Part shown: piece by piece, positions 8,487 through 26,790 of the stretch
Layout: the number at the start of each line of letters is the position of its first letter
Numbering within the stretch: position 1 is the first letter of the stretch
NCBI GenBank assembly: GCA_023250205.1
Contig: JAHFBE010000015.1
Coordinates: 1 to 40,281 of the forward strand
Direction of reading: 5' to 3'
DNA from: Candidatus Melainabacteria bacterium
GTDB taxonomy: Bacteria; Cyanobacteriota; Vampirovibrionia; 2-02-FULL-35-15
DNA: 40,281 nt
Made by a program: the position numbers and the translations under genes
Notes under the pieces: model-generated
What the model saw: the letters and a program-made list of their open reading frames with translations, nothing else
Told to the model about the DNA's origin: nothing
Database searches by the model: none

Positions 8487-8580
8487 ATGTCATTGCGAGG
8501 AGGTTCTTTAGAACCAACGAAGCAATCTCCAAAACGTTAGGAGATTGCCACGCCTCGCTTTGCTCGGCTCGCAATGACAT
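8487..8580. repeat. Palindromic element, intergenic copy
   Basis: ATGTCATTGCGAG...CTCGCAATGACAT are perfect 13-bp inverted termini with an internal AGCAATCTCC/GGAGATTGCC arm. Imperfect extension outward to TATGTAAA (8465) / TTTACATA (8602). Confidence 0.9.
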
Positions 8581-9710: not shown

Positions 9711-10826
9711 ATGCGAAAGAAAAATTACGCTCAAAAAAATCTGCGTTCTGTGATACTTAACCTGCATCAGTATACAGCAGGTAAGTCCATTGGGGAAATA
9801 GCACATAAATACAAACTTCACCCAAGCAAAATCCTGAAATTAGGTAGCAATGAAAACGTTTTAGGTTCTTCACTAAAAGCAAAAATTGCAGCAACATTTG
9901 CCCTGGAAAAAGTAAATATTTATCCAGAGGTTGTTTCTACTGAGCTTTCCAATAAAATCAAAAAACTGCACAGACTAAAGAACGTAGAAGTTGTAGTAGG
10001 AAATGGAATGGATCAGATCCTGGAAATGCTGGGAAGATTATTCCTCAACAATGGAGATGAGACTATTATTTCTGTTCCAACATTCACACCGTATGAATTA
10101 TCCACCTTATGGGCAGGTGGCAAACCTCGCTTAATCCCACTTTTAAAAAACACCTGGCAAATGAATGTAGAGAAAATTTTAAAAACAATAAATAAAAGAA
10201 CAAGAATTATATATATTTGTTCTCCCAATAATCCTACAGGTAATTTAATGAATGAAGAAGATATTAAAAAAATTGTTGAGTCTACGGACAAAATAGTTTT
10301 TCTAGATGAGGCCTATGCAGAATTTGCAGGAAAATCATATATAAAATGGGTTGAGAAATATCCTAATTTAATTATTGGAAGAACATTTTCAAAAATTTAT
10401 GGATTAGCCGGATACAGAGTTGGCTATGCCTTTATAAATAAGGCATTGATTAGTTATTACTTAAATTCAATCACACCATTTGTTGTATCAAGACCCGGAC
10501 AAGCAGCCGCTCTTGCAGCATTGGACGATAAAGACTTTGTTTCAAAAACCTTAAAAATGAATAGTGAAGGTAAAAAGTTTTACTATGAAAATTTGAAAGC
10601 CGCTGGTATAAAATATCTTCCGACAAATGCAAACTTCATCACCATAAATACTTTCCCAATTAAGGCAAAACTTATAGGAACAAAATTACTTGAAAAAGGA
10701 ATAATTACAAGAGAATGTACCTCATTTGGCAATGGTGGAGAATATTTCGTACGGATTACTATAGGAACAAAAGAACAGAATAAAAGGGTTTTAGAAGCGC
10801 TGAAAAGCCTGTCATTGCGAGCGTAG
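9711..10826 (+). CDS. hisC: Histidinol-phosphate aminotransferase (start moved from 9516 to 9711)
   Basis: LGSNENVLGSS, YICSPNNPTGN, FLDEAYAEFAG, RTFSKIYGLAGYRVGYAF, FVRITIGT. The extra N-terminus from 9516 is antisense to the DedA-like gene and not HisC-like. Confidence 0.93.
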   Translation: MRKKNYAQKNLRSVILNLHQYTAGKSIGEIAHKYKLHPSKILKLGSNENVLGSSLKAKIAATFALEKVNIYPEVVSTELSNKIKKLHRLKNVEVVVGNGMDQILEMLGRLFLNNGDETIISVPTFTPYELSTLWAGGKPRLIPLLKNTWQMNVEKILKTINKRTRIIYICSPNNPTGNLMNEEDIKKIVESTDKIVFLDEAYAEFAGKSYIKWVEKYPNLIIGRTFSKIYGLAGYRVGYAFINKALISYYLNSITPFVVSRPGQAAALAALDDKDFVSKTLKMNSEGKKFYYENLKAAGIKYLPTNANFITINTFPIKAKLIGTKLLEKGIITRECTSFGNGGEYFVRITIGTKEQNKRVLEALKSLSLRA

Positions 10827-10930
10827 CGAAGCAATCTCACTTGACCATTAATAAATACATACTCAAGCTAAGAAAGTGTTAGGTTTTTATGAGATTGCTT
10901 CGTCAGGACTACGTCCTTCCTCGCAATGAC
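10811..10930. repeat. Palindromic element overlapping the hisC stop, between convergent genes
   Basis: GTCATTGCGA...TCGCAATGAC termini; internal AAGCAATCTCA/TGAGATTGCTT arms. Confidence 0.9.
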
Positions 10931-22280: not shown

Positions 22281-22412
22281 GTCATTGCGAGGAGCCCAAG
22301 GGGCGACGTGGCAATCTCATTTAGATATAACAATTTTGAGCAGGACAATAAATTGATAGCTGTCAGCAAAGATTGCTTTGTCGTCCGCCTAAGGCGGACT
22401 TCTCGCAATGAC
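22281..22412. repeat. Palindromic element, intergenic copy between paralog B and polA
   Basis: GTCATTGCGAGGAGCCCAAGGGGCGACGTGGCAATCTCAT...AAAGATTGCTTTGTCGTCCGCCTAAGGCGGACTTCTCGCAATGAC. Confidence 0.9.
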
Positions 22413-25755: not shown

Positions 25756-26790
25756 GTGCCAACTGAACAAGAAATTTTAAAAGTTATAAGAAAAATTATC
25801 CCAGGATCAAAAAAGTATTTATTTGATGACACTGCCATAATCGACAAGAATCTGATTGTAACTACTGACACATTAGTAGAAAATACACACTTTACTTTAA
25901 AGACTTATGTTCCTGAAGAAATTGGATGGAAGGCAATGGCTGTCAATTTAAGTGATATTGCTGCTATGGGTGGAAAGCCATTATACGCTTTAGTTTCATT
26001 ATCACTACCAGTAGGAATCAAACTTAAATGGATAAATGATTTTTACAAAGGATTAATAAGCTGTGCAAAAAAATATAAGACTCAAATCATTGGTGGTAAC
26101 TTAACAAGATCAAAAGAAATAAATATTACTATTACTTTAATTGGGAAAGTAAATGATAAAAACATTGGGAAAAGAGTAAATGCAAAAGAAGGGGATTTTG
26201 TTTTCACAACTGGTACATTTGGGGATTCTGCTTGCGGATTGTTGCTTTTGAAGAATCCTGTCATTGCGAACACATTTGCTTCGCTCAGTGTAAACTCTGC
26301 AAAGCAATCTCACAAAAGCGAAATCAGTCAGGTGAGATTGCTTCGGGCTAAAGCCCTCGCAATGACAAAACAATTAATTAAACAACACAAAAAACCAACA
26401 CCTCAAATTAGTCTTGGACAAAAAATAGTTAAACTTACAAGAAGAACTTCATTGATGGATGCAAGTGATGGACTTGCAGACTGTCTTATACAAATCTCAA
26501 ACCAAAGTAAAGTAAAAATTATTATTGATAAAGGTAAAATTCCGGTTTCACAAAATACTAAATCTGCAGCAAAAATATTAAATAAGAACTTTTTAAACTT
26601 ATCTTTATATGGTGGAGAAGATTATCAATTGGTAGGGACAGCTAGCAAAATCGATTGTAAAAAACTAGCAAAAATTAAAGAAATAAAAATAATAGGAAGA
26701 GTAATTAAAGGTAAAGGTACATTTTTAAAGCAAAACAATAACAGGCTTGTTAGACTTGATCTGCAAAAAACTTATGAACACTTCTCCTGA
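25756..26790 (+). CDS. thiL: Thiamine-monophosphate kinase (GTG start), with a repeat-derived internal insertion
   Basis: DDTAIID..LIVTTDTLVENTHF, GWKAMAVNLSDIAAMGGKPLYALVSLSLP, GGNLTRSKEINITITLIG, LMDASDGLADCL, LYGGEDYQLVGT. Confidence 0.93.
   Translation: MPTEQEILKVIRKIIPGSKKYLFDDTAIIDKNLIVTTDTLVENTHFTLKTYVPEEIGWKAMAVNLSDIAAMGGKPLYALVSLSLPVGIKLKWINDFYKGLISCAKKYKTQIIGGNLTRSKEINITITLIGKVNDKNIGKRVNAKEGDFVFTTGTFGDSACGLLLLKNPVIANTFASLSVNSAKQSHKSEISQVRLLRAKALAMTKQLIKQHKKPTPQISLGQKIVKLTRRTSLMDASDGLADCLIQISNQSKVKIIIDKGKIPVSQNTKSAAKILNKNFLNLSLYGGEDYQLVGTASKIDCKKLAKIKEIKIIGRVIKGKGTFLKQNNNRLVRLDLQKTYEHFS
26260..26366. repeat. Palindromic element inserted in frame inside thiL
   Basis: GTCATTGCGA (26260) ... 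TCGCAATGAC (26366); internal AAGCAATCTCAC/GTGAGATTGCTT arms as in the intergenic copies. Confidence 0.92.

Follow-up and report, generated by a model that had tools for sequence, protein, structure and literature searches.

A palindromic repeat lying in frame in thiL and probable recurrent repeat insertion at the same gene sites of related bacteria

In-frame palindromes within genes are best known from Rickettsia, and intragenic REPs occur in scattered other species. According to a review (PMC10969869), Rickettsia genes contain in-frame copies of the Rickettsia palindromic elements, or RPEs (Ogata 2000/2002). RPE-4, -6, and -7 are found at the same sites of orthologues and have ATGAC ends in common, and the choice between insertion hotspots and a common origin was left not fully settled (PMC3767692). 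When the CGTC-tagged repeats were defined, RPE-6 was placed in CGTC-1 and RPE-4 in CGTC-4; in-frame intragenic copies were described in several species, including in DNA ligase and tRNA synthetases, recB of two Xanthomonas was found to carry a copy at nearly the same position, and the CGTC repeats were said to “apparently lack a dedicated transposase” (PMC3733652). Here, we describe a palindromic element within thiL, its copies elsewhere in the same genome, and the corresponding sites in related genomes; the window denotes the whole stretch of DNA analyzed (40,281 nucleotides [nt]).

The element within thiL

The thiL open reading frame (ORF) scored 280.3 bits against TIGR01379 (cut-off 184.15) and retains the invariant columns, which assigns it to ThiL; an AIRS N-terminal domain was also detected, and the closest solved structures are those of Aquifex aeolicus ThiL (1vqv/3c9r). 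The gene looks intact, and the enzyme otherwise appears functional. The features at this locus are as follows.

25756..26790, + strand: thiL, thiamine-phosphate kinase (GTG start, 344 amino acids; TIGR01379, AIRS N-domain, AaThiL 3c9r fold match)
26260..26366, + strand: palindromic element in thiL, two inverted [C/T]GTC-tagged hairpin units (exact arms, RNA fold, genome copies)
26259..26312, + strand: first unit of the element, TGTC-ATTGC...GCAAT-CTCA (direct reading, unit consensus)
26333..26367, - strand: second unit, inverted, TGTC-ATTGCGA-GGGC-TTTA-GCCC-GAAGCAAT-CTCA (direct reading)

The element comprises 107 nt with the ends GTCATTGCGA...TCGCAATGAC and exact 10-nt arms, and it occupies exactly the positions inside the plus-strand ORF that the first-pass annotation had given. 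The codon-aligned translation from GTC proposed there, VIANTFASLSVNSAKQSHKSEISQVRLLRAKALAMT, is correct; its 36 codons consist of the 107 nt plus the next A, are read in phase 0, and correspond to residues 169 to 204 of the protein, with VIANTFASLSVNSAK... as a peptide belonging to the insert. The repeat thus appears to add 36 amino acids to ThiL. The RNA fold of the insert has an energy of -45.2 kcal/mol versus -23.3 kcal/mol for shuffled sequences (z -6.4), and the second unit occurs four times in identical form.

In a pairwise alignment with Aquifex ThiL, homology stops at residue 165 and restarts at residue 206; in Aquifex, 12 residues separate these two stretches. All invariant residues of the class ThiL alignment lie outside the insert and are retained, in agreement with the earlier statement that motifs on both sides are intact and in frame. 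An AlphaFold model of ThiL with the insert, built with 28 class sequences, reached a mean pLDDT of 92.4 and a pTM of 0.89; its TM-score against AaThiL 3c9r (by target length) is 0.87, and the ThiL fold is intact. Over the insert, the 10-residue pLDDT means are 70, 65, 87, and then 95, and its second half is modeled as prolonging a native helix at the N-terminal end (pLDDT 87 to 95). The insert sits in a variable loop that separates the N-terminal half of the enzyme from the C-terminal half. A surface position of this loop is suggested by the variation in its length.

Copies across the genome and the frame rule

Arms with at most one mismatch occur nine times in the window (1.1 expected) and form four paired elements, the one in thiL and the following three, which carry no strand assignment.

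8489..8578: element copy, intergenic (arm search)
10811..10930: element copy overlapping the hisC 3' end (hisC stop codon at 10824-10826, inside the element)
22281..22412: element copy, intergenic, upstream of polA (arm search)

The second of these provides hisC with its stop codon and last residues. In the whole genome, a draft of 2.08 Mb in 83 contigs and 87% complete, exact half-sites number 147 + 149, compared with 0 + 1 for a reversed control pattern, corresponding to a copy number of about 150. A census of 1.13 Mb (about half of the genome, in stretches chosen partly for carrying repeats) yielded 121 paired elements, mainly inverted dimers like the CGTC repeats, in stretches that hold 119/117 exact half-sites. 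The elements are mostly 80 to 130 nt long (62 to 149 nt in the first batch), and their GC content is 49% against a background of 34%. Each consists of two inverted units, built of a [C/T]GTC tag, ATTGC...GCAAT, and a tail, most commonly CTCA; among the 121 elements, the base 5' of GTCATTGCGA is T in 80, C in 40, and G in 1, and the base 3' of TCGCAATGAC is A in 93, G in 25, and another base in 3. The unit interiors vary greatly, with 138 different forms in 179 units, but the tip tends to stay palindromic; perfect apical stems of at least 4 bp are present in 49% of distinct units versus 11% of shuffles. Rfam matched only a tRNA in the window, and blastn of the thiL element against plasmid records returned no match; a literature search with the repeat letters gave titles pointing to PCR primers and nothing in combination with “palindrom,” and one with typical element peptides gave no match.

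Copies were counted as in frame when the ORF extends at least 40 codons on both sides. By this measure, 25 of the 121 elements in the genome of the window (G000) lie in frame within continuous ORFs, and no copy disrupts a gene; being ORF-based, the count misses broken genes that have already vanished from the population or whose ORF on either side has shrunk to fewer than 60 codons. Two relatives behave in the same way (7 of 24 copies in G009 and 1 of 25 in G001, none breaking genes), so that the three genomes together contain 33 genic copies, all in frame and free of stop codons, and no breaking copy. Non-genic copies are stop-free in 23% of frames, before any length requirement (30% in phase 0, 26% in phase 1, and 15% in phase 2). 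The in-frame copies of G000 divide into 18 in phase 0 (VIA...), 5 in phase 1 (RHCEE...), and 2 in phase 2 (SLRG...). This in-frame excess is what selection against disrupted proteins predicts. Six apparent out-of-frame insertions (two in G000 and four in G009/G001) were rejected, being gene junctions, e.g., lpxD-wecB and murE-aroE, which were recognized by sequence reading. The same intergenic junctions are filled in different genomes (murE-aroE, L092 and L182; lpxD-wecB, L163 and L184), indicating that non-genic sites are likewise reused or inherited.

About 20 ORFs are affected in G000. Ten host ORFs are named by NCBIfam, some scoring lower than the strict equivalog cut-offs and all with E below 1e-38: valS, ligA, mtnA, the CCA-adding enzyme, murT-like, pabB-like, hemC, prmC (which carries two insertions), nadD, and ribE. 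Further hosts, named by sequence reading alone, are metH-like, nuclease-like, and ubiD-like ORFs and large surface-type proteins.

Reuse of the same sites in relatives

ThiL is present in 55 of the 60 relatives searched. Nine of the 10 family relatives have no element in thiL, in agreement with the lineage-specific gain that had been proposed, and only G009, which belongs to another genus, has another copy. The native loop reads “LLLKEIAHAHIGTYAQKLI” in G003, is similar in G010 and shorter in G004, and is almost missing in G001, G002, and G008. The earlier statement that ThiL proteins run on almost directly at this point therefore applies to these three nearly loopless relatives, but in several others a loop is present that can reach about 13 residues, and compared with them the net gain is about 26 residues. 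Two further loci stand apart: the loop of G006 (L002), “NEQNKLNSQSSILNPQS,” is a different insertion-like stretch and not of the GTCATT type, and thiL of G005 (L008) has an in-frame TGA just 5' of the NAKPGD motif, which may be a sequencing error, a mark of a pseudogene, or another insertion scar.

In G009, a full element occupies the same ThiL loop in the same phase, with GFN immediately preceding and HKKP immediately following it. The element of G000 lies between GLLLLKNP and KQLIKQHKKP; relative to the native flanks, the two are offset by 5 to 6 codons. Their similarity (score 27.0, rank 53 of 121) is no closer than that of random copies. Because of this offset and random-level similarity, the G009 copy is probably a separate insertion, and two independent insertions are the simpler reading. 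In a tree of ThiL, LigA, ValS, and PrmC, G000 pairs with G002 (73) and then with G001 (100), and G009 pairs with G008 (89).

Other genes repeat this pattern. At the ligA site, G000, G001, and G003 have full elements, G009 has a 30-nt remnant (GTCATTGCTTCGCCGTTGGCTCGCAATGAC), and G002, G004, G005, G006, G007, and G008 are empty; the remnant looks as if the part between the element's two ATTGC words had been deleted. At the first prmC site, G000 has an element of the GTCATTGCGA kind, and G001 and G003 have palindromes of another family, GTCATTCCC...GGGAATGAC, whose phase differs between the two; the second site holds a phase 0 element in G000, a phase 1 element in G001, an ATTCCC-type palindrome in G005, and a remnant in G009. 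The different families that occupy a single prmC site in different genera cannot stem from a single insertion. This second family lies in frame, in two phases, in prmC of G001 (L141), G003 (L144), and G005 (L142), and no paired copies of it (GTCATTCCCGC arms) were found in the 1.13 Mb of G000. The mtnA and metH sites are common to G000 and G009. G000 also has two mtnA copies (L038:14548-15786 and L095:3129-4331), both of which carry two in-frame elements at corresponding sites, but with different element sequences; the copies may represent a duplication or a contig of a related strain. The valS element is found only in the sister genomes G000 and G002, where it is nearly identical save for the tip of one unit. 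These elements, shared by descent (L126 versus L127), differ almost only in that tip, by 24 nt and in frame, as if hairpin tips were exchanged between elements; the tip motif of this comparison, GTAAACTC, is found in the thiL copy too. Judged from these sequences, permissive loops evidently receive recurrent insertions, and the short relics evidently reflect decay.

A single ancestral thiL insertion in the common ancestor of G000, G001, G002, G008, and G009, followed by loss of both element and loop in three of these genomes and by divergence of the element in the remaining two, would explain why the three element-free genomes have an unusually short loop. These five genomes do group together, with weak support (bootstrap 54), and the elements at the ligA and metH sites are common to several relatives. 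Nevertheless, we consider this history unlikely, since the elements of G000 and G009 lie 5 to 6 codons apart with similarity at the level of random copies, and the prmC site with its different families demonstrates that repeated insertion does occur. We are instead inclined, with some reserve, to think that in this non-proteobacterial family at least two palindrome families continually supply protein insertions and that the permissive ThiL, LigA, PrmC, MtnA, and MetH loops were filled independently in different genera and different reading frames and then whittled down to short scars. If so, some of the length differences seen naturally among these housekeeping enzymes would be repeat debris, and hotspots would be favored over a common origin in the question raised for RPE-4, -6, and -7 (PMC3767692). 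The roughly 20 affected ORFs, together with relatives at all stages (empty, one family, another, relic), form a natural series that addresses how selfish DNA lengthens housekeeping enzymes and whether the sites are hotspots or inherited.

Origin of the insert and relation to known systems

Neither a target-site duplication nor a transposase could be tied to the element, and mobility is suggested by its distribution. Flanking direct repeats of at least 3 nt accompany at most 3 of the 121 elements, no parent insertion sequence was found, and the 14 Y1 transposase loci examined all lack the flanking paired element expected of a RAYT-mobilized REP. Nevertheless, when the genomes of the class are divided at a threshold of 10 copies, 12 of the 18 element-rich ones and 8 of the 42 element-poor ones have Y1 transposase genes (PF01797), an association that is uncorrected for relatedness (Fisher p 7e-4). 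The single Y1-transposase-like gene in G000 (C29:42245-42421, L194) is a weak partial match and has no flanking elements. Within the class, elements are abundant in several families and nearly absent in others.

Our preferred explanation, which we hold to be very probable, is that a CGTC-like mobile palindromic repeat inserts at many places in this genome and that the tolerated insertions persist. Genic copies would survive only in a tolerant loop, with the frame kept and without a stop; one such insertion would have been fixed in thiL and translated as 36 residues, the repeat itself being, as far as the protein is concerned, a selfish or neutral passenger. The same loops would be struck repeatedly in related genera, and insertions would later shorten by in-frame deletions. 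The strong mRNA hairpin could instead suggest that the element is removed at the RNA level or bypassed by the ribosome, leaving a ThiL of normal length; in that case, frame and stops would be irrelevant, yet all 33 genic copies are in frame and stop-free, compared with 23% of frames in non-genic copies. Hence, we take the repeats to be translated and not removed; splicing and ribosome bypassing were rejected on these frame statistics, and removal of either kind is extremely unlikely. Recruitment of the insert for a ThiL-specific or regulatory function, as an adaptive peptide, would be in keeping with its modeled last half, which prolongs a native helix at high pLDDT, but it seems very unlikely, given that inserts of this kind turn up in unrelated proteins, where all three reading frames are used, and that the closest relatives have none in ThiL. 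That the insert is an artefact of assembly or gene calling, or that thiL is a pseudogene, is extremely unlikely even for a draft of 83 contigs: the element copies differ and are thus not collapsed repeats, the frame is intact over 344 codons with the invariant residues retained, and parallel cases exist in independent assemblies.

The first-pass annotation had drawn a parallel to RPEs in an unrelated lineage. The 16S sequence of the family member G005 is closest to cyanobacteria (81.3%), ahead of alphaproteobacteria (79.9%), in a comparison among plasmid records, and does not place the host in Rickettsia (Alphaproteobacteria). A cyanobacterial 16S primer motif is found in only one family of the class (f6) and is absent in f1. 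The 16S result fits a nonphotosynthetic cyanobacterial class, presumably Vampirovibrionia. The parallel holds at the scale of the genome (25 in-frame copies) and for an unrelated host, but the element is probably not of an unrelated kind, because in its [C/T]GTC-AT ends it agrees with the CGTC superfamily, including RPE-4 and RPE-6.

Among the systems compared, bacterial MITEs (PMC10969869) are likewise short inverted-repeat elements with many copies and occasional in-frame fusions; the present repeat differs from them in having no target-site duplication of at least 3 nt and no parent insertion sequence. Wolbachia palindromic elements (Ogata 2005, as cited in PMC3767692), compared here by description, are also protein-coding palindromic repeats, but alphaproteobacterial. 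The likeness to RPEs is closer: they are palindromes of about 70 to 150 nt with many copies in frame in unrelated genes, and orthologous sites are occupied in relatives, as described in PMC10969869 and PMC3767692; the copies studied here (62 to 149 nt, 25 in frame, none breaking genes) conform to the 100- to 150-nt in-frame palindromes typical of RPEs. The differences are the host phylum, the use of three reading frames, and the presence of different palindrome families in one site, and the parallel refers to size, placement, and end motif. With the CGTC REPs, the element has in common the CGTC/TGTC end tag, the inverted dimers, the in-frame genic copies, the lack of a known transposase, and a stem that starts with complementary AT (units GTC-ATTGC...GCAAT). 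The CGTC REP stem, however, has 8 to 9 bp with a loop of 4 to 5 nt, whereas here an outer ATTGC/GCAAT stem of 5 bp is followed by mismatches and then by a variable apical stem, and the host phylum is outside the five listed for CGTC repeats (PMC3733652). The phenomenon as such is already known from RPEs and from intragenic CGTC/GTAG REPs, in-frame palindromes outside Rickettsia having been reported before (PMC3733652); new here are a CGTC relative with an interrupted stem, a new host lineage, and the repeated use of the same loops.
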